From Thermosipho melanesiensis BI429 (GTDB lineage: Bacteria; Thermotogota; Thermotogae; Thermotogales; Fervidobacteriaceae), in NCBI RefSeq assembly GCF_000016905.1, contig NC_009616.1, positions 1,426,001 through 1,490,000 on the forward strand: DNA of 64,000 nt, read 5' to 3'. Numbering within the stretch: position 1 is the stretch's first letter; each line of letters starts with the position of its first letter. The notes below the pieces were generated by a model, which saw only the letters and a list, made by a program, of their open reading frames with translations, was not told where the DNA came from and did not search any database. This document shows, piece after piece, positions 13,689 to 38,785 of this stretch. The position numbers were made by a program, and so were the translations under genes.

Positions 13689-16600
13689 TTAATATCCTAT
13701 TACAGAATAGGTAATCATGGCATTCGCTGATTCTTTTAGTGTGCTCGGCGTGTAACTTACCAATGTCGCTGTAACATTCGAAGATGATGAAGGGCTATCT
13801 CGCAATGCCCACTCTGTTATTGTTCCGTCACCCCAATCAATATGACCGAGTTTGGCAAAATAAATGCCGTCTGGAAGAATTTTTTTCAGCTCCCATGTAT
13901 ACGACACTTTAATCGTATAAGGTGGTGTTCCAGAGTAACGGTGCAAATATTCAACAGAAAGATCGGGGCCATTTATCCGCACAACAGCCTCATCTACAGC
14001 AACCGTAATTGTATACAAAGTATAATATGTTTCTGTGGAGTCATTGTATTCAACTGTGACTTGAGCGTTTGGATATTGTTTTGGCTGCACGAGTTGTGTA
14101 TATGCTAATATTTTAAAACTTTGGTTATCAATTTTTTGCCAATCTAATATTAATTTTCTTGAATAATTTGGGGCGAAAGTAGAACGCCAATACTCAAAAT
14201 TACTAATACCAAGCAAGACAAAATACTCAGTCAATGCAACTGGTAATGTTATTGTTTGTTCTGTAATTCCATTCATATTTATTGAATATGGCCCATAAAT
14301 AATTCCTAAAACTGGGTAATCTGAATTATTCAAAACTCTAACAAGCCCGTTAGTACCGTCAATCGCCCATCGGTTAACTCCTGTCCCCACATCGATGCGT
14401 TTGCCTGCATATATTGTATTTGCTGCAATCAAATCACCCACAACACTACCTTCAGGCGCATTTTCTGGAATAAGCGTAACCCTTGGGGCGAGATTAACCT
14501 CCGTATATCCCTCAGGCATTATCTGATTTGCTTCGTCGATGAGAGAGTTAGTCCAGTAGGCGAGGGTGCCTGAGGGCAATGAGAACGCAGGTGACACCGC
14601 GAGTTTATCGAGGGTGATGCTGCGGGCCTGGATGCGGTCAGCGTCGAGGTAACCGGTCGTTATCACACCAGCATCAAGCTCGCTGATCCATGCTGTATCG
14701 ATTTTTCCGTTTTGAATAATAGCGTCCTTAATTGCAGCATAGTCGTAGTAACTCGCATCGTCCAACTTCACCGTTGAGGCCGTCACGGCAGAACTCCAAT
14801 CGCTCGCATTTCCAGACTTATCAACAGCTTTGATTCTCAGGTAATAAGTCGTATTAACCGCCAAATCTTTTATAACAGCCGATGTAGCGTTCAAAACTAT
14901 CTCTTTTGCTGTTGAAAAATCACTCTTAGTGTCGTACTGCAAGACATAGTGGTCGAAGTCATCTTCAGTGTTTGGATTCCACTTAACCATGATCGTCTGA
15001 AAGAGTCCCGTCGGTGTTAAACCTGTTGGAACAGCAGGCGGCACCTCGTCTTTTGCGCTCGTTATGGAAGCTGCGCTCGACCAATCTGACTTCTTTCCTT
15101 CCGCATCCAGAGCCCGCACCTTTACATACACGGTGGTGTTTCCGGGCACCACAAACTGCGACAGCGTTTCTGCTGTTGTATAATAGTGCCAGTGAACACC
15201 ATCAAGACTCCAAGTTACTTCATACCCTATTACATCAGCTTCCGGTACAGGGTCAAAGCTTACTCTAACTACGCTTTCGCCTTTATCATTCATAGTTGTG
15301 GAAAGCGACAAATTCTGCGGCACAGAAGGTGCTGCACTGTCAATATAGTTCGTTCTCTCATCAACCTCATTCACCTGCTCCTGAAGCTCTTGAATCTGTC
15401 CCTGAACCTCAGTGATTTGCTGCTGCGTTTGGTTTTCGACGGGGTCAGGAGAGCGAGTAGCGCGGGTGAAGGTCTTATCGCCTGTCGTGAATTCGATATC
15501 CTTCCACTCGACGATATCGAGCGATGTCTGAAACTTAGCAGACTGCAGGCTGTGCTCTACCTTCAGAACAAGGAATGTTCCTGAACTAATCCCTTTAAGC
15601 GGTACTGCGAATTCGATAAGATTTCCCGCATACACATCCGCGTAGAACTCGTTCATCGCAAGACCGAAGCGGATCGTTTTGTTGATGTTTTCGTACAGCA
15701 CATCGGCTATATTGCTCATCACAGCTTGCGAGTCAAAGAAGGTTCTGACGCTGTATTCTTTGTCGGGCTCGCCTGTGGTGTTTTCTTTGATCAGCTTGTT
15801 TACACTGACCTTCTTGACCTGCCGCCCCTGAATTTTCACATGGTTTATTACGACGTTTTCTGATGTCGTAAGGGCTTTTATCTCGATAACGGCTTTATCG
15901 GCGTATCTTTCGTACTTGGTGATCTGGATATGCTCATTTGAAGGCTGTGGGGTGCTCTCCAAGACCGTGAACGGCACGTCCTCCTGAAAGCCCGCACCGA
16001 CAGAATAGCTTATGTATATCGTATCGCTCACAGCCACCGCGTAGTCTGATACATACTCAAGTTCAAAGGTCGCAGTAGTTCCAGGGGCTATTGTGTTGTT
16101 GCCCTGAAGCTCAAAGTCAATCACCCACGACAGGTCGTCATCGACGCGGTATCCTTCGCTTTCAAGCGTGATCTTGTTGAACCGTCTTTCGGTTCCAAGA
16201 TCGTAGCGTTTGAAAGTGTCCTGCTGAAGCGAGAGTGCGGGGTTGGGATCGGAATACGAACTTGTGTCCATTCTTGTTCTGTATATGATTTTGCCTTCGG
16301 GTGTTGTGGATATCTTCCCTGCTGTGCCGCGAACGAGGTTTATCACGGTTTGCCAAATTGTGCTGTCTTTCCTTGCGAGAAATGTGCAGGGATATTGGAC
16401 TTCCTGAAAGTCAAACTGCGACGAGTCGAGGCCTGCACGCTGAAAGAGATCAGCGAGTATCTCGTGCGGTTTCATATCGATGTAAAGTATGTCTGTATCG
16501 AGTTTTTTCTTCGTTGCGTAGTAGCATATATCAGCCACTTTCATTTCTGCTTCTTTGTGCCGTTCTGTGAGCTGGGTTTTGACACCGTAGAAGAGCGGGA

Positions 16601-16958
16601 CATCGATATATTCGGTATCGCTCTTGTACACACGGAGCAGGATTTTGACTTCCCATTCCTTGCTGAGGTAAGCCTGATCTACGGTACCGTTGAATTTGCC
16701 GCTTGAAGGATCGAATGCGTCGTTATACTGCGTCGGTGTCCATTCGTTGCTGAGATTAGCGAGAATTATCGTGGCCGAGTCAATAGCGGGGCTTTCGAGA
16801 AATTCGAGTTTGTTGACGATGCGGACTTCCTTGACCCACTCGGTGATGTCGTACCAGTTTGTGCCGTCGATTTTGGCGAAAACTGCAACACTTTTGTAGC
16901 GTGTTGGGTGGCGTATATACGGAATGTAGCTGGAATCCACATTAAGTTTTGGGAACAC
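13689..16958 (-). CDS. Tail tip / baseplate protein with fibronectin III domains
   Basis: 1089 residues starting at GTG after GAGGTGG. The N-terminal 480 residues look like a tail hub (WYDITEWVKEVRIVNKLEFLE, then the hub-like region with KYERYADKAVIEIKAL). A coiled coil follows (TQQQITEVQGQIQELQEQVN), then two fibronectin type III domains (starting PSVPQNLSLS and PPAVPTGLTP), and a C-terminal beta-rich part ending near 1089 that probably contacts the cell. DNA from about 14500 to 16950 is clearly GC-richer than the rest, while the last 800 bases (C-terminus) are AT-rich, so the gene is a recombinational mosaic. Confidence 0.8.
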   Translation of the reverse strand: MFPKLNVDSSYIPYIRHPTRYKSVAVFAKIDGTNWYDITEWVKEVRIVNKLEFLESPAIDSATIILANLSNEWTPTQYNDAFDPSSGKFNGTVDQAYLSKEWEVKILLRVYKSDTEYIDVPLFYGVKTQLTERHKEAEMKVADICYYATKKKLDTDILYIDMKPHEILADLFQRAGLDSSQFDFQEVQYPCTFLARKDSTIWQTVINLVRGTAGKISTTPEGKIIYRTRMDTSSYSDPNPALSLQQDTFKRYDLGTERRFNKITLESEGYRVDDDLSWVIDFELQGNNTIAPGTTATFELEYVSDYAVAVSDTIYISYSVGAGFQEDVPFTVLESTPQPSNEHIQITKYERYADKAVIEIKALTTSENVVINHVKIQGRQVKKVSVNKLIKENTTGEPDKEYSVRTFFDSQAVMSNIADVLYENINKTIRFGLAMNEFYADVYAGNLIEFAVPLKGISSGTFLVLKVEHSLQSAKFQTSLDIVEWKDIEFTTGDKTFTRATRSPDPVENQTQQQITEVQGQIQELQEQVNEVDERTNYIDSAAPSVPQNLSLSTTMNDKGESVVRVSFDPVPEADVIGYEVTWSLDGVHWHYYTTAETLSQFVVPGNTTVYVKVRALDAEGKKSDWSSAASITSAKDEVPPAVPTGLTPTGLFQTIMVKWNPNTEDDFDHYVLQYDTKSDFSTAKEIVLNATSAVIKDLAVNTTYYLRIKAVDKSGNASDWSSAVTASTVKLDDASYYDYAAIKDAIIQNGKIDTAWISELDAGVITTGYLDADRIQARSITLDKLAVSPAFSLPSGTLAYWTNSLIDEANQIMPEGYTEVNLAPRVTLIPENAPEGSVVGDLIAANTIYAGKRIDVGTGVNRWAIDGTNGLVRVLNNSDYPVLGIIYGPYSINMNGITEQTITLPVALTEYFVLLGISNFEYWRSTFAPNYSRKLILDWQKIDNQSFKILAYTQLVQPKQYPNAQVTVEYNDSTETYYTLYTITVAVDEAVVRINGPDLSVEYLHRYSGTPPYTIKVSYTWELKKILPDGIYFAKLGHIDWGDGTITEWALRDSPSSSSNVTATLVSYTPSTLKESANAMITYSVIGY

Positions 16959-17039
16959 ATTACCACCTCGCTTTTCTTCACTTCCTTCACAATACTACAA
17001 CCATCCTTATCACAAAAAGCATCGCCGTCTTCTCCCCAT

Positions 17040-17169
17040 CCCTCTCACAATACTCTTAAATACATGAGAGGGTTTCTCAGCCTTACAGGCTGAGCAACAC
17101 GTGGGCTGGGACAAGCCCACGTGGAGGTGGGAAGTCCCCCACTACTCAGCCCGAAGCTGAGATACTTTA
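17040..17169 (-). ncRNA. Five-helix structured element, copy A
   Basis: Read on the minus strand from TAAAGTAT, five hairpins follow. P5 is CTCAGC/GCTGAG with loop TTCGG, P4 GTGGG/CCCAC, P3 CACGTGGGCT/AGCCCACGTG, P2 CTCAGCC/GGCTGAG with loop TGTAA, and P1 CCCTCTCA/TGAGAGGG. Linkers TA, TTG and AA(A) are shared with copy B. It begins 10 bases after the stop of the fibre gene. Conserved linkers with different but fully paired stems indicate selection on structure. What it does is unknown. Alternatives are a tnpB-less IS200/IS605 end or omegaRNA-like remnant, or an mRNA processing or stability element. Confidence 0.75.
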
Positions 17170-17178
17170 CCCGCCACC

Positions 17179-18405
17179 TCATACTATCGGTAACTTTGGC
17201 GGCACTGAGAATGGGCGGCGAGCTTCGTAGAGTTGTTGAATATAAGAGTCGGTCCAGATGTTGGGGTCGTACTTGGCGATGAGGAGGTTGGAAATTAAGC
17301 CGTTCATGCCATGTATTGCAGACAAATCTGAGGGCCTATAACCTATTTTTATATGAGTAAAATTACCAAGATTTAAACTTACTGTGATTGTTCGTCTTAA
17401 ACTTCCATTTAAATATATTTTTAATACAGAACCATCATATACAAATACAACAAAATGCCAATCATGAAAATCTACATCGAAAGCTTCTATTGTTACATTA
17501 GCTGCCGGAGCACCATCTTTTTGAATTACAATTCTTTGTGTTTGGTTATCAGGATATGTAAAAGAAGCGATACTATCCTGATAATAATCATCCGCTTGAA
17601 TTGTAATATCATGCTGAGCTGCTGTCGTTGGTTTATTATTTTTCCGCCAAAACGCAATAACAAAAGGTTCAGTAATTGGAATGTTAATTTTAAACCTTCC
17701 ATCAGGTCTCGTCCCATCTACAAAGCTTGTTGCGAAGGGTTTTATTTCTAACTGTAACTTATTCAAATAGCCCGAAATTCCACTTACATATGCTTTATAA
17801 AAATCCCAAATAAAATATAAATATCGTGTATCTTCTGGTAATGTATAAGTAATAATTACATCATACCATCTATCTAATAACAATTCTGGATTACCATAAT
17901 ACTCGGTTCTATGGCCGTTTATTTTTATATGCAATCCTTGCCTTTCCCAAAAATTCAGTGTTGCATCTCCTTTAACTTCTACTGTATCACCATCATTGAA
18001 ATCCATCCAATTGCTACCATCAATACTATATCTGGCGACAACAAACCATAGACATCCTTTGTGTTTCCAGCTTAAGGTTATCTTTGTTCCGGCTGGATAA
18101 ATTTGTCCTAAATCAATCGTGTGTGTCTCAATTTTATATACAGTAATACCTTGTCCACCAATATATGCTTTTTGTGTTTCGTCCCAACAATCTGCCCATG
18201 TTTTTCCTGAAGCCAAAGCATAAGGAAAAAATACCACTTGCCCAGCATCAAAATTCCACGAATATTGCCCGAAATAATTCATCGTCCCCTCTTCCACAGC
18301 AAAACTTTTCACGCCTGGAAACGGGACGTCGTCTTTTCGGAGCGTGACGCAGAGAGAGCCGTCGTCGTTGTAAATCAAGTTATAAGGGGTTTTAATCAAA
18401 GCCAT
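17179..18405 (-). CDS. Tail fibre with lectin/LamG-like domain
   Basis: About 408 residues from ATG 18405, which has GGAGG upstream; the frame opens earlier inside element B. It begins MALIKTPYNLIYNDDGSL, a common small N-terminal adaptor in phage fibres. The C-terminal half (about 240-400) looks like a concanavalin/LamG jelly roll (FKINIPITEPFVIAFWRKN, WHFVVFVYDGSVLKIYLNGS, then GLISNLLIAKYDPN). It probably binds a surface sugar. The gene is flanked on both sides by the five-helix elements. Its two ends are GC-richer than the middle. Confidence 0.7.
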   Translation of the reverse strand: MALIKTPYNLIYNDDGSLCVTLRKDDVPFPGVKSFAVEEGTMNYFGQYSWNFDAGQVVFFPYALASGKTWADCWDETQKAYIGGQGITVYKIETHTIDLGQIYPAGTKITLSWKHKGCLWFVVARYSIDGSNWMDFNDGDTVEVKGDATLNFWERQGLHIKINGHRTEYYGNPELLLDRWYDVIITYTLPEDTRYLYFIWDFYKAYVSGISGYLNKLQLEIKPFATSFVDGTRPDGRFKINIPITEPFVIAFWRKNNKPTTAAQHDITIQADDYYQDSIASFTYPDNQTQRIVIQKDGAPAANVTIEAFDVDFHDWHFVVFVYDGSVLKIYLNGSLRRTITVSLNLGNFTHIKIGYRPSDLSAIHGMNGLISNLLIAKYDPNIWTDSYIQQLYEARRPFSVPPKLPIV

Positions 18406-18466
18406 TCTATTTCCTCCTTCTTGCTTTACACTGCCAATTCCTAAACAATAAACAGAAACCCCTAAT

Positions 18467-18597
18467 CCCCCTGTGTTCTCGCAGAACTTCACAGAGGGTT
18501 CACAACCCCTTATAGGGGCTGTGCAACACGCTGGCCAGCCTTACCAGCGTGGGTGTTAGGGGACACCCACTACTCACCCCGCGGGCGAGATACTTTA
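18467..18597 (-). ncRNA. Five-helix structured element, copy B
   Basis: Same layout as copy A. P5 is CTCGCCC/GGGTGAG, P4 GGTGT/ACACC (extendable), P3 CACGCTGG/CCAGCGTG, P2 CACAGCCCC/GGGGTTGTG with loop TATAA, and P1 CCCTCTGTG/CACAGGGGG. P1, P2 and P5 each contain a G-U pair on the minus strand that would be an A-C mismatch on the plus strand, so the functional strand is minus. Its first three bases TAA are the stop codon of the gene at 18595-18939, as if insertion of the element had ended that gene. Confidence 0.75.
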
Positions 18598-18939
18598 ATC
18601 TTCCTCATCTACACTTATCTCGCTCGGCACTTCAGCTGAAGCGTACCCTGCGTTGGCTTCCAGAACCGGCTTTGCCTTGTCATACATTGTCTTCAAGATC
18701 GCATCAAGGGAAGGCTTAAGGTAAAGCGGAAGTTCGATCTCATCCACGAACTCTTCATACTGCCATGCAGGAACTTCTTTTTGGGTTACATTACCTTCTT
18801 CGTCGTACTCCTCAATGGTCGTTGTTGTCTCCTGTATCGCCACTCTGAACGCATACCTAACCTTGAAAATCCCCCTTTTTACATCATCCTGCACGCTGAG
18901 AACCTTTATCTCGGCAGGTTTAGAAGTTGAAATAACCAC
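18595..18939 (-). CDS. Tail-region hypothetical protein
   Basis: About 114 residues between the tape measure and the fibre. An in-frame GTG at 18948 touches the Shine-Dalgarno, whereas GTG at 18939 has GAGGGGGTG six bases upstream and is preferred. The sequence (VKRGIFKVRYAFRVAIQETTT, then acidic EIELPLYLKPSLDAILKTMY) is not a family I recognise. The acidic C-terminus ends at a TAA that is the first codon of element B, so the protein may be truncated. It could be a tail assembly or fibre accessory protein. Confidence 0.6.
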   Translation of the reverse strand: MVISTSKPAEIKVLSVQDDVKRGIFKVRYAFRVAIQETTTTIEEYDEEGNVTQKEVPAWQYEEFVDEIELPLYLKPSLDAILKTMYDKAKPVLEANAGYASAEVPSEISVDEED

Positions 18940-18958
18940 ACCGGTCACCCCCTCAATT

Positions 18959-21900
18959 TCACGTAATTACCAACGTGCCCTCTTCGAGTGCTTCTCTTAC
19001 AGCTTTTACTACCATCTCTTTAAAAGCCTCTGCACTATCCAAGAAATTACTGTTTTGGAAGTACTGATAGATATTCACTGTTTCCGGTCCACTTCTTGTT
19101 ACATTCGCCGTATACGTCTGCGTTATTTCGGCTCCGAAGTTCTCATCGCTGATGTTTATTTTTCCGATCTTCTCCTCAGCCTCTTTTGTTATCTGCTCCC
19201 AGGATTTCACGGCGCGTTTTCCCATGTTAACAAATCCGAACGTAAGCGCTCTCACAACGTCAGAAACCATGTTGTAGAGCCAATTGAAAGCGTTAACTAT
19301 CATTGCGAATGCTATATAAAATCCTCTTGCTATCGGCACAATCACCGTGTTGTATGCCCAAACGAGAATGTTTGCAAACGCCTGAAGCAGGCCAAGGAAC
19401 GGCTCCAGTAACGGAAGCAGGAGCGTTCCAAGTAATCTACCGAAAATCTGCAGGATCTTTACGAACGGCTCCAGCGCACGGTTGATGACGGTGCCAAGTA
19501 CTTCCATGATGCCCTGGACAACCACACCGATGGGATCAAGCAATTGCATTACGTTTTCAAGAGTTGCAAGCATAGGGCCAAGCTTTCCGAGAATGCTTTC
19601 AAACAGACTTCCTAAACTACTACCCAGCCCTTTAAACCCTTCTATTGTTGTTTTAAACGGTGCGAGAATATCAAAACCTGCAAGTGATCCAGTTTTTGCA
19701 GTTTTTACAAGCGCGGTTCCCAAGTCTTTCAACCACGTCAGTTGCGGCGTTGCAGCCTGCGCAACCTTTATCGCGTTTATAAAAGTATCGAACAGCCCTT
19801 TATTAGCTTGATAGTATTTTGCCACTGCCCCGCGTACCATATCTATGAGCATTTGCAGTTTGCTTTTACTCTTTTTAGCGTCCTGTTGTTGTTCCCCGAT
19901 TTTTTCAGCGATGATCTTTAAAGCTTCCGCAGACTCAGGGCCCGTCTTTTTAATTATATCCGCTATTTGCTTTAGCGTTCCCGCTACCGTTTTTACGTCG
20001 TTTGCTATCCCTCCATCTGTGAAATAGCTTATAATTGCATCTACAATTCCACCTTTGTTGTATCCTCTCGTTCTAATCTTTTCCAGCACTGAAACCATCG
20101 ATGGATACTTTTTAACCATCCACGCCGGGACAACGTATTCCCCTTTGTGCACTATGCCAGCCGGTTCATGTTTGCCTCCATTGCCTGTATATCCACCTTC
20201 GGCATATCCTGGTTGATAGAACAGTCCCATCCATGCTAATATTTTCATCCACCAAGGAGTTTGTTTATCATCCATTATTTCCTTTGCCATTTCCTGTTTT
20301 TTTAATTCAATTTCTCCTTGTTTTTCAAAGCCTTTTTTGAAGAAATCTATAACATCGCCCGAGATCTTCACAGCAATTTCCCATGTTGTTTGAACAAGAC
20401 CGCCAAAGTATTTCATTATTTCTTTTATAAACTCCAATCCCTGAATAATCCAATCCCATGTTGTTTGTAAAGCTTCCCATGTTCCTTCTCCTATTGGTTT
20501 TAAAACATTTTCCCAGAGCCATTCAATATCTGAAACAGTCCATTCCCAAGTAGAAGAAATAGTTTCCCATATTGCTTGACCAATAGGTTGTAAAATGTTA
20601 TCCCATAACCACGTTAAGCCATTTACAATCCAGTCCCAAGTTGTCTTCAATGTTTCCCATATTCCAGTTCCTAATGGTTGTAAAACATTCTCCCAGAGCC
20701 AATCAACACCGTTTACAAGCCAATCCCATGCCGTTTCTATACCTTCCCAAGCTTTTTCTCCAATCCATGACATAATATCCCAAAGTTTTTCTAAACCTGT
20801 AACTGTCCAATCCCAAACAGTTTTAAATCCTTTCGTAAGCCCATTCCACAGCCAACCAAATACATCTTTTACTCCTTTCCAAATGTTTTCCCAATCAATT
20901 GATTGTATCCAATTTAATAGTTTTATAAATATATTAACCATTAGGTTGAACAACCATTGCAAGAAATCTGCAAAATCTTTTCCTTCATTTTTGCTCTTCC
21001 AAAGCATGTATAGAGCAGTTACTGCTCCTATTAAAGCTAACGTAAATGGTCTTAGTAAGAAAGTTCCTATCTGTGCAATTTGAGTAAACAATTTTAAAGA
21101 TATTAATATGCCTATTAAAGTAGCCCCCAACCTGAGCAACGCCCAAACTGCTTTTCCTACTGTTTCTTTATTTTCATCAATCCATTTTGTTAACTGCCTT
21201 ATTCCGGCAATTAGCTTGCTCAAGAAGTCAATTACTCCACTTCTTACTGCGTTGAATAAAGTCATGTTTAAAGCTCCTAAACTTGCTTTCAATTTATCAA
21301 GTAAATAAGAAACAGATTGTGTTTGTAGCTGATATGCTTCATTTAAAGCTTCTGTATCACCCTTTATCCCGCTTAATACGTCTTCAAATTTTTCATAATT
21401 GTTGATCCATGTTAATAACGCTCTCGAACCTGTTTCAGAAAGTGCAAGTTGTTGCAAAAAAGCTCTTTTTTCATCATCGGTAAGTCCTTCAAGTTTCTTT
21501 CTAAATTGTTCTACGACCTTTGTTAGCCCAACAAATTTTCCATTTGCATCATAAAGGTTAATCCCTAATTCCTTGAACTTATCTGCTTGCTGGAGCATAT
21601 CCATAAATGCTCCTTCTGCTGCATTTGCTGCCTCAGAAGATCTAAAACCTGCTGTTGTAAGTGCGGTATATCCTGCAAGTGCTTCCTTTAGTCCTACTCC
21701 TAAGTTTCTTGCGGCTGGGATTAACTGGCCAAAGTCCCTTGCAAGTTCTTCATAAGTCAATAACCCTTTTTTAACTGCTTCAAACTGCATTGCATACACT
21801 GTGGTGAGTTTATCTATGCTCAATCCATATGCATTGATGATAGAAATAGCACTTTGAAATGTAGTTGTTAAATCCGTTGCACCTGCAATTGAAGAAACAG

Positions 21901-22321
21901 CAGTTGCTTTTAACACGTTTAAGCTATCTTTTGCTTCAACGCCAGCAGACCCCAGCATGTATAAAGCGTTATTAAGCTCATCTAAAGGTTTTCCTGTTGC
22001 TACGGATAAATTAATTAATTGTTTTTGCATCTCTCTTGCTTGTTCGCCTGTCATTTTCATCATTGTGCGTGCATTTTGAAATGACTTTTCTACCTTGGCT
22101 GCAAAATAAGTTGAAGCACTAACTGCTCCAGCTAAAGCCCCTGTGAATGCAACTGTGTATTTTAAAGCAGTATTGATTGCACTTGAAAATTGCTGAAGAT
22201 TTTTTCTCACATTATCAATTTTCTTTTGAAAAGTATCCAAGTTTCTTGACACGGTTCTTAGAACAGGACTCGCTGAATCTGAAGCTTTTATTACTACTCC
22301 AAGTGTTTCTTGTTTTGGCAT
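18959..22321 (-). CDS. Tape measure protein
   Basis: About 1120 residues, setting tail length. The N-terminal third is a helical TP901-type core (GALAGAVSASTYFAAKVEKS, AREMQKQLINLSVATGKP). Next come membrane-like segments (VGKAVWALLRLGATLIGILI), a tryptophan-rich tandem repeat (20459-20815), a G-rich linker (YAEGGYTGNGGKHEPAG) and hydrophobic helices (ILGKLGPMLATLENVMQLL, LLGTLLLPLLEPFLGLL). ATG 22321 is preferred over GTG 22330. Base composition changes near 20100: the 3' part is GC-richer than the 5' part, so a recombination boundary lies inside the gene. Confidence 0.9.
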   Translation of the reverse strand: MPKQETLGVVIKASDSASPVLRTVSRNLDTFQKKIDNVRKNLQQFSSAINTALKYTVAFTGALAGAVSASTYFAAKVEKSFQNARTMMKMTGEQAREMQKQLINLSVATGKPLDELNNALYMLGSAGVEAKDSLNVLKATAVSSIAGATDLTTTFQSAISIINAYGLSIDKLTTVYAMQFEAVKKGLLTYEELARDFGQLIPAARNLGVGLKEALAGYTALTTAGFRSSEAANAAEGAFMDMLQQADKFKELGINLYDANGKFVGLTKVVEQFRKKLEGLTDDEKRAFLQQLALSETGSRALLTWINNYEKFEDVLSGIKGDTEALNEAYQLQTQSVSYLLDKLKASLGALNMTLFNAVRSGVIDFLSKLIAGIRQLTKWIDENKETVGKAVWALLRLGATLIGILISLKLFTQIAQIGTFLLRPFTLALIGAVTALYMLWKSKNEGKDFADFLQWLFNLMVNIFIKLLNWIQSIDWENIWKGVKDVFGWLWNGLTKGFKTVWDWTVTGLEKLWDIMSWIGEKAWEGIETAWDWLVNGVDWLWENVLQPLGTGIWETLKTTWDWIVNGLTWLWDNILQPIGQAIWETISSTWEWTVSDIEWLWENVLKPIGEGTWEALQTTWDWIIQGLEFIKEIMKYFGGLVQTTWEIAVKISGDVIDFFKKGFEKQGEIELKKQEMAKEIMDDKQTPWWMKILAWMGLFYQPGYAEGGYTGNGGKHEPAGIVHKGEYVVPAWMVKKYPSMVSVLEKIRTRGYNKGGIVDAIISYFTDGGIANDVKTVAGTLKQIADIIKKTGPESAEALKIIAEKIGEQQQDAKKSKSKLQMLIDMVRGAVAKYYQANKGLFDTFINAIKVAQAATPQLTWLKDLGTALVKTAKTGSLAGFDILAPFKTTIEGFKGLGSSLGSLFESILGKLGPMLATLENVMQLLDPIGVVVQGIMEVLGTVINRALEPFVKILQIFGRLLGTLLLPLLEPFLGLLQAFANILVWAYNTVIVPIARGFYIAFAMIVNAFNWLYNMVSDVVRALTFGFVNMGKRAVKSWEQITKEAEEKIGKINISDENFGAEITQTYTANVTRSGPETVNIYQYFQNSNFLDSAEAFKEMVVKAVREALEEGTLVIT
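20459..20815 (-). repeat. Four tandem 29-30-residue tryptophan-rich repeats in the tape measure gene
   Basis: Units begin WDW or WEW and run about 90 bases. They follow the pattern W-D-W-x3-G-x2-WLW-x-N-x-LQP-x-G-x3-WE. Coding units end near 20815, 20728, 20638, 20548 and 20458. The spacing of 87, 90, 90 and 90 bases is regular, so changes in copy number would shift tail length in steps. Confidence 0.85.
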
Positions 22322-22326
22322 CTGAA

Positions 22327-22830
22327 TCACCTGCCTTTATTCTTATTTGCAAGTTGTTCTACAAAGACTGTTTTGAAATTAATCAGAAATATTATCCAGT
22401 CTACTGGTTGATCGAAAATTCCTCCAGATTCTGGAAGATTAATTATATTCCCCTTGTGATCCACATATGCAAGAACGAATTGGAAGTAATTCTCTTTTAT
22501 AAAGTCATACATTTGTCTATCTTCTTCTGGAACATTGTTTCCCATTTTGATATCAGAAAGCATTAAATTTAGCCATCTTTTAAGTTTATAACCTTCAATA
22601 CTCAGCAATGGTTCAACGCTTTCAAGTAATTTCTGTCTTAATAGCTCAACAGTTTCATGTTTTAGCATTCCGCAAGTCTTGGTAGTTATCGGCACATTTT
22701 CACTCCATCTAATAATATGAAAAGGGAGAGCTTCAATCACTCTCCCCTTTCTTAGTAATTCAATTCCTCTAACAGTTAATTTCTTATATTCTATCCAGCC
22801 ATCTTCAAACTCCAAAAGCATTGCTACCAC
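22327..22830 (-). CDS. Second tail assembly chaperone, possibly made by frameshift
   Basis: 167 residues, starting within the end of the preceding chaperone gene, in the +1 frame relative to it. It repeats part of its neighbour: IIRWSENVPIT here against VIKSWSESVPVT there, followed by similar helices, so the two are paralogous domains. It may be read by its own start (ATG after GGTGG) or as an extension after a +1 shift at GTT TGA. It lies directly before the tape measure, the usual place for the G/GT pair. Confidence 0.7.
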   Translation of the reverse strand: MVAMLLEFEDGWIEYKKLTVRGIELLRKGRVIEALPFHIIRWSENVPITTKTCGMLKHETVELLRQKLLESVEPLLSIEGYKLKRWLNLMLSDIKMGNNVPEEDRQMYDFIKENYFQFVLAYVDHKGNIINLPESGGIFDQPVDWIIFLINFKTVFVEQLANKNKGR

Positions 22831-37882: not shown

Positions 37883-38785
37883 TTATTCTTTTACAAAAGG
37901 ATTTAGAATTTCCTTTTGTTTAGGTTTATCTACTTTTCCATTTTCTGATTCTTCTGTTTCTACCTTTTTTTCTTCTTTCTCATTTGCTGGGATTTCTTTT
38001 GCTTCTACGTCGATTATTTCCCAATCGGTTTCGTCTGGTGCTTCATCCATATGTTCTGATAATTCAATCTTTGTAGTTTCATCAGTTGAAAGTTTCCTTT
38101 GGAGTTCAACACTGAGAGGCATATATTTAAGCAACTGCTTAATGACTGTCTTTTTTGCCATTGCATCATAATCAGTTATCCATGGACCTTCGTTTGGTGT
38201 TTTTGAACGTTTTCGTATCTTCTCAATGTCATCAACGCTCATAACCATAAAAGAATATCCACCGTCTTTTAAGTGGGCAACTGCATAATATGCTATTACT
38301 TTTCCTCTACCATTTAAGGATGGCTTATGGTACAATTTAGGATGAAGTCCATACTCAAATTCAAATTCATCATTTTCGCAAACTTCGTGTGCATCGATAT
38401 TTAGTGCTTGTTCTGAACGATAAAATAGATCAATGATTCCTTTATATCCAAGTTGGAACTGAGCTAGCGTTTTACCAAGTTTTCTGTTGTAATAAGGAAT
38501 AATATAAGCTTGCCCAAGATGTGAGCCAGGCTCTAAACCTAATTGAGCGGCAGTCATCATTGCAGCCATGAAAGACATTGGGTCACAGTCCAACAATTTC
38601 GGGTTTTTCCTAACTTCTGTTAGAATTATCCTTGTGAATCTTTCAACGTTTAAATGTTTTGGAAGAGCTCTTTTTATCTGTGGTTCCATTTTCTTTATTA
38701 AGTCGGCTAAAGTATTTCCTTTTGCTGGGGGCTTTGTGCCTCCCTTTTTCTGAAGTTGCGCTTTTATCTCGTTCACTTTAGCCAT
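37883..38785 (-). CDS. recT: RecT single-strand annealing protein
   Basis: 300 residues. RecT core: MSFMAAMMTAAQLGLEPGSH, AYIIPYYNRKLGKTLAQFQL, GYKGIIDLFYRSEQ and WITDYDAMAKKTVIKQLLKY. Anneals single strands after exonuclease trimming. The acidic C-terminal tail may bind SSB. Directly downstream of the YqaJ exonuclease gene with which it forms a RecE/RecT-like pair. Confidence 0.93.
   Translation of the reverse strand: MAKVNEIKAQLQKKGGTKPPAKGNTLADLIKKMEPQIKRALPKHLNVERFTRIILTEVRKNPKLLDCDPMSFMAAMMTAAQLGLEPGSHLGQAYIIPYYNRKLGKTLAQFQLGYKGIIDLFYRSEQALNIDAHEVCENDEFEFEYGLHPKLYHKPSLNGRGKVIAYYAVAHLKDGGYSFMVMSVDDIEKIRKRSKTPNEGPWITDYDAMAKKTVIKQLLKYMPLSVELQRKLSTDETTKIELSEHMDEAPDETDWEIIDVEAKEIPANEKEEKKVETEESENGKVDKPKQKEILNPFVKE

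Follow-up and report, generated by a model that had tools for sequence, protein, structure and literature searches.

Genes and structured elements at the fibre locus

The window analysed here covers bases 1426001-1490000 of NC_009616, a stretch of 64 kb from Thermosipho melanesiensis BI429, an organism for which, as for strain 431, a prophage has been reported (PMC6211235), and the genes described below sit in the tail module of a prophage. They are read from the minus strand, in the order tape measure (18959-22330), a small gene of phrog_38476 (18595-18948), tail fibre (17179-18405) and a central, J-like tail protein (13689-16958). The fibre gene belongs to phrog_38142, runs from an ATG at 18405 to a stop at 17179 and encodes a receptor-binding-type protein of 408 amino acids with a match to Laminin_G_3 in its C-terminal half (E 1.3e-11); the small gene adjoins the fibre gene in relatives where both were found. 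Head genes lie upstream of the tail module and, further up, the same prophage carries a gene for a RecT-like single-strand annealing protein (37883-38785, minus strand; phrog_148, E 7e-99).

A GC-rich block with a GC3 of about 50-60% extends from the end of the tape-measure gene, which is GC-rich in its last ~200 codons only, as far as codon ~800 in J (positions ~14,500-20,200); the prophage outside this block has 30-37% G+C. The BI429 genome also contains broken genes of the IS200/IS605 type (Y1 transposase and TnpB-like pieces) at G000:C1:210222-210925, 1083443-1083731 and 1759245-1759322.

Both junctions of the fibre gene are occupied by a structured element consisting of five hairpins. Copy 1 (17040-17169) lies downstream and copy 2 (18467-18597) upstream of the gene, and both start with TAAAGTATCTC on the minus strand; the limits of the element (17169-17040 and 18597-18467) were set from the fifth hairpin, and the first three bases of copy 2 are the TAA stop of the preceding gene. 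The copies are homologous, have the same orientation and are 1,428 nt apart, confirming the first-pass annotation, which had described a LamG-like fibre gene framed by same-orientation copies at a distance of about 1.43 kb. The core of the element (17138-17169 and 18566-18597) has no mismatch to the common pattern in either copy, and no match was obtained in 100 shuffles. Overall, the two copies are only ~75-80% alike and their longest exact run is 11 nt.

The element has features of a folded RNA

Folded as the gene strand, copy 1 reaches -73.0 kcal/mol (z -7.75 against shuffles) and copy 2 -68.5 kcal/mol (z -4.62); the opposite strands fold more weakly, with -63.8 and -57.1 kcal/mol, respectively. 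Among 3,193 overlapping segments of 140 nt that cover the window, the two copies are the two best distinct folding places, with the tRNA cluster ranking behind. A long-range fold of copy 1 is absent in copy 2, and therefore only local hairpins were used for the comparison.

The alignment of hairpins 1-4 has 28 or 29 pairs with 98-100% of the cells paired; when, as a control, the partner was slid by 1-3 columns, pairing was at most 47%. Six of 29 pairs are changed on both sides between the copies, a level of covariation that rests on a single comparison of two copies and that 8 to 10 of 500 shuffles reach; hairpin 5 contributes two further double changes. The copies differ mainly in the loops (8 of 24 positions identical) and by compensatory changes in the stems (43 of 61), and the linkers are fully conserved (15 of 15). 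All five pairs that are changed on one side only have a G.U pair on the gene strand and would have A.C on the other strand; with these five changes, the chance of such a bias is 1 in 32 if both strands were equal. With G.U pairs kept on the gene strand only, the element is likely to work as an RNA, within the late transcript.

Compensatory changes that keep the pairing are the mark of a functional folded RNA; here they come from two sequences only and are suggestive, not proof. Together, the covariation, the conserved linkers and the G.U-compatible changes suggest that the element is kept as a folded RNA that is read in gene sense, and an RNA function in this sense is supported but not proven by the sequence comparison. 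In both copies, a CAC triplet has two alternative pairing partners, a GUG with which hairpin 2 begins and one with which hairpin 3 ends; that the choice between the two acts as a switch is a guess.

Searches for further copies

The two copies at the fibre gene are the only ones found, in one of 103 Thermotogota genomes: neither pattern search nor covariance model detected a third copy in the BI429 genome, and a covariance model of the element (R1) identified none in 11 + 19 loci of relatives. The expectation from the annotation that the same element would be found next to different fibre genes was not borne out, with no copy beside any other fibre gene in the genomes, viral contigs and relatives' loci searched. 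The strict pattern had no match in viral contigs, a second pattern search had none either, and a DNA comparison with plasmids and phages returned no relative of the element. A pattern with variable gaps matched seven stretches in genome contigs and one in a viral contig; none of the eight, when folded, has such an array of hairpins and we regard them as chance matches. Two looser patterns matched at least 120 and 30 stretches and these, too, were dismissed as chance after the loci had been tested with the covariance model: there was one weak match in 80 loci (L120, 18.2 bits, selected by its own seed) and none in 70.

Rfam covariance models gave nothing at gathering score on either element and, with the threshold relaxed to E 10, only matches at chance level (E 1.2-8.4). 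A known structured RNA family, including the HEARO / IscB-type RNAs, was rejected on this absence of an Rfam match. We also considered the IS200/IS605 remnants of the genome as a source of the element; the best match there had 15.3 bits, was AT-rich and lacked the conserved linkers. Literature searches on intergenic and structured RNAs of Thermosipho and on the siphovirus tails of Thermotogae (Marinitoga) found no paper. Judged by these searches, the articles cited here and Rfam only, we claim that the element is undescribed so far.

Fibre gene junctions in related phages

Relatives of the locus were found in the Marinitoga phages MPV1, MCV1 and MCV2, in 7 of 103 Thermotogota genomes including BI429 and at 16 loci of viral contigs. 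Outside the window, 28 loci were examined, many of them near-duplicates, so that the following counts are not independent. In the relatives, the genes follow one another in the same order and the element is missing. The gap that separates the small gene from the fibre gene measures -14 to 41 nt in each of the 23 measurable loci (all but L056, L057, L058, L068 and L081). The gap between fibre and J gene is 9-47 nt in 17 of 23 measurable loci; the remaining six have 253 nt (once; L064, with extra sequence), 510 nt (three times; MPV1 and its duplicates, 25% G+C) and 806 nt (twice; loci with a broken fibre frame). The corresponding gaps of BI429 are 189 nt upstream and 220 nt downstream of the fibre gene. 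One degraded prophage (G013) has the small gene and no recognised fibre gene, and is uninformative.

Several of these loci have peculiarities of their own. L034 (G060) and L066 have a fibre gene with a broken frame, in the form of open frames of 213 and 181 amino acids. The 510 nt between fibre and J gene of MPV1 (L007 6132-6641; 25% G+C) resemble decayed gene remnants. The Marinitoga phages (L007-L009) have varied extra genes between tape measure and small gene, a hot spot of insertion, and in MPV1 and MCV1 the extra genes at this position adjoin a strong hairpin. In four loci of one clade (L032, L061, L065, L069), small hairpins flank the fibre gene on either side and share one stem, TGCGTATAA...TTATACG; in two of these loci a T run comes after the downstream hairpin. 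The arrangement is like that of BI429 and the sequence is unrelated. These look-alike hairpins leave room for a link between hairpins and the fibre gene junctions.

A plain hairpin directly follows the fibre stop in MCV1, MCV2, G059, L064 and G057, in some cases with a T run, which would fit a reading of the BI429 elements as ordinary terminators or hairpin gene ends and nothing special. We consider this reading distinctly unlikely: a T run is absent from both elements, scans of 17040-17169 and 18467-18597 for a sigma-70-type promoter consensus and for terminators had no match, and five hairpins with conserved linkers far exceed a terminator.

Apparent insertion and possible origin of the elements

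Each element is bracketed by a short repeat. GAGGTGG is found directly before copy 1 (17174-17180, minus strand), where it overlaps the fibre stop and probably represents the ribosome-binding site native to the J gene. It recurs 211 nt away on the far side of copy 1, immediately ahead of the J start codon (16963-16969, minus strand). Likewise, GAGGAA directly before copy 2 (18601-18606, minus strand), inside the end of the preceding gene, is probably the site native to the fibre gene and recurs 190 nt further on, past copy 2 and directly before the fibre start codon (18411-18416, minus strand). In relatives, the ribosome-binding site is located at or across the stop of the preceding gene at many such junctions. 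Thus, each element looks as if inserted between an old and a new Shine-Dalgarno-like motif, and both the tight junctions of the relatives and the end repeats of 6-7 nt point to an ancestral site that was empty before the insertion. The repeats could have arisen by target duplication, or they could just be ribosome-binding sites.

How the elements arrived can be read in two ways. REP/BIME sequences and the palindromic repeats derived from IS200/IS605 are dispersed families of GC-rich palindromic intergenic insertions. The elements of BI429 could be copies of a mobile palindromic element of this kind (REP- or MITE-like) that entered two tight junctions of the operon and has since been retained or left to drift: they, too, are GC-rich palindromic intergenic insertions, the two junctions at which they add sequence measure ≤47 nt in most relatives, the 7-nt and 6-nt repeats bracket them at 211 and 190 nt, and the genome has broken genes of IS200/IS605 type. 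However, such families have multiple dispersed copies, whereas the genome has just two copies of the element, both beside one gene. Moreover, no cognate transposase was recognised for the elements and no convincing relative was found around the IS200/IS605 remnants, motifs of ribosome-binding sites are expected to repeat anyway, and the copies have diverged by ~20-25% and yet kept both pairing and linkers. On balance, we find a mobile origin rather doubtful.

The other reading starts from base composition. The GC-rich block was probably acquired as a module from a GC-richer phage, and the element pair may have been native to that donor, with the region from the C-terminus of the tape measure to about codon 800 of J imported together with both elements and the AT-rich fibre middle swapped in afterwards. 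The last part of the tape measure has a GC3 of 49-55%, the small gene 51% and J, over most of its first 800 codons, 51-62%, compared to 17-29% in the earlier codons of the tape measure and in the genes beyond the block. No donor with the block or the element was found, however, and import would account for the origin of the elements but not for their function; as it concerns origin only, it is compatible with the explanation as an RNA element. We hold this origin tentatively, at slightly less than even odds.

Exchange takes place inside the fibre gene

The annotation had further proposed that the direct copies are recombination sites that allow the whole fibre gene to be swapped or deleted as an exchangeable cassette. 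In a comparison of 153 pairs among 18 loci, 24 pairs have an alignable flank that reaches into the fibre gene, and three of these can be aligned across the whole gene. Similarity at the 5' side stops at nt 123-140 of the fibre gene in 16 pairs (12 when duplicate phages are left out), and similarity at the 3' side starts 81-128 nt before the stop in nine of eleven pairs; the remaining two, at 594, are one duplicated pair. Six close pairs have a swapped, largely unalignable middle between conserved ends with both flanks alignable, and in all six the limits are at nt 131-140 and at 107-128 nt before the stop. Flank identity in these pairs is 78-99.6% and crosses both junctions into the gene. The sharpest pair is L055/L060: the flanks are 99.6% and 98.8% identical and just one block of 54 nt aligns inside. 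As the flank identity crosses the junctions and stops inside the gene, the exchange is intragenic.

The fibre gene of BI429 itself is divided in a similar way. In the best two-break model of its GC3, the first break follows codon 50 (range 42-58) and the second precedes the stop by 129-162 nt; the three parts have a GC3 of 60%, 19% and 65%, and none of 200 shuffles was as good. The AT-rich, swapped middle thus defined comprises codons 51-365 (17311-18255, minus strand). The claim of the annotation that the gene ends are GC-richer, like the elements, and the middle AT-rich holds: the ends have 46.7% and 48.6% G+C and the middle 33.9%, with 53% and 57% in the elements. Identity between the fibres of BI429 and MPV1 is 86% in the first 45 residues and 8-26% in the 180 residues that follow; with L006 the values are 53% and 51-60%. 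This contrast between MPV1 and L006 indicates that the fibre middle has a separate history. Taken together, these sequence comparisons show the fibre gene to be a mosaic, with the first ~45 and the last ~40 codons fixed and the middle swapped.

Exchangeability of the fibre was therefore rightly predicted, but the copies are neither its agent nor its boundaries, with the breaks lying inside the gene both in the six pairs of relatives and in the composition of BI429. That the fibre gene family is clearly exchanged, that the copies are direct and lie on both sides of the gene, and that comparable promoter/stem-loop cassettes are reported for T4-like phages (PMC4503421) would fit a cassette. Against it, similarity between relatives breaks 107-140 nt inside the gene in phages without the element, and these relatives swap the fibre middle with no element at all; related phages carry this fibre gene in the corresponding place and have no elements, the very finding that the annotation had named as speaking against its idea. 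Both composition breaks of BI429 fall inside the fibre gene, the first separated from copy 2 by ~210 nt and the second from copy 1 by ~140 nt. The copies, with no identical run above 11 nt, are a poor substrate for homologous deletion or exchange, and no copy is found beside any other fibre gene. Exchange of the whole gene between the copies is mostly refuted and we consider it very improbable. Inversion between the copies, which the annotation had suggested looking for, is not expected with direct copies; an invertible tail-fibre cassette of the Gin/Min type needs inverted repeats and a site-specific invertase.

With crossovers in the conserved gene ends, the exchange unit is intragenic and the element is not needed. 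We infer that the agent is homologous recombination via short homology in the conserved ends, perhaps with the RecT of the phage. Intragenic mosaicism of phage receptor-binding and tail-fibre genes by homologous recombination, involving Rad52-like recombinases (Red-beta, RecT, Erf), has been described by De Paepe et al. 2014 (PMC3945230), where such recombinases are reported to promote exchange between diverged phage sequences experimentally. Conserved ends, an unrelated middle, fixed break points and a RecT-like protein in the prophage are shared with the mosaicism described there; the differences are that the phages studied here are those of thermophilic Thermotogota and that the role of the recombinase is one that we infer.

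Structured intergenic sequences that frame a gene are also known from T4-like phages: the PeSLs (promoter early stem-loops, composite promoter-terminator motifs; Arbiol et al. 2010 and Comeau et al. 2014, as cited in PMC4503421 and PMC3797505), for which module shuffling has been proposed. In contrast to the PeSLs as characterised in these citing articles, the elements of BI429 have no promoter or terminator match (by consensus scan only), belong to a late tail operon and not to early genes, and have two copies in the whole genome where PeSLs have many; furthermore, the break points are not at the element.

A possible role at the fibre cistron

Our reading consists of two separate parts, an intragenic mosaic in the fibre gene and a pair of inserted five-hairpin RNA elements at its junctions, and we give this account as a whole a probability of roughly 60%. 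One element would have been inserted at the upstream and at the downstream junction of the fibre gene, in this lineage only as far as seen, each insertion parting a start codon from what is probably its native ribosome-binding site, and would have been retained as a folded RNA in gene sense. Its most likely role is that of an RNA structure between cistrons that would bound the fibre cistron in the late message and determine how this cistron is processed, stabilised or translated compared with its neighbours.

Phage operons have intercistronic structures that process or stabilise RNA, with the RNase III sites of T7 as an example. Like these, the elements of BI429 would fold at the gene junctions of a polycistronic phage message and bound one cistron, the fibre; unlike these, they consist of five short hairpins and not of one long duplex. 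Two copies beside one gene and nowhere else in the genome are not explained by a general expression element.

A much bolder reading is that the elements represent a new class of phage RNA elements, paired at the ends of a receptor-binding cistron, which would allow the fibre message to be excised or controlled as a unit of its own while its coding middle is exchanged freely, with the pairing of CAC to the two GUG as the switch; we think this unlikely. In either case, the element is a candidate for an unclassified, strongly structured RNA in the operon of a thermophile phage. The break points, at about codon 44-47 and ~40 codons ahead of the gene end, delimit a receptor-binding module that Thermotogota phages can reuse, and the analysis separates two things that are easily confused, the repeats that frame the fibre gene and the real points of exchange.
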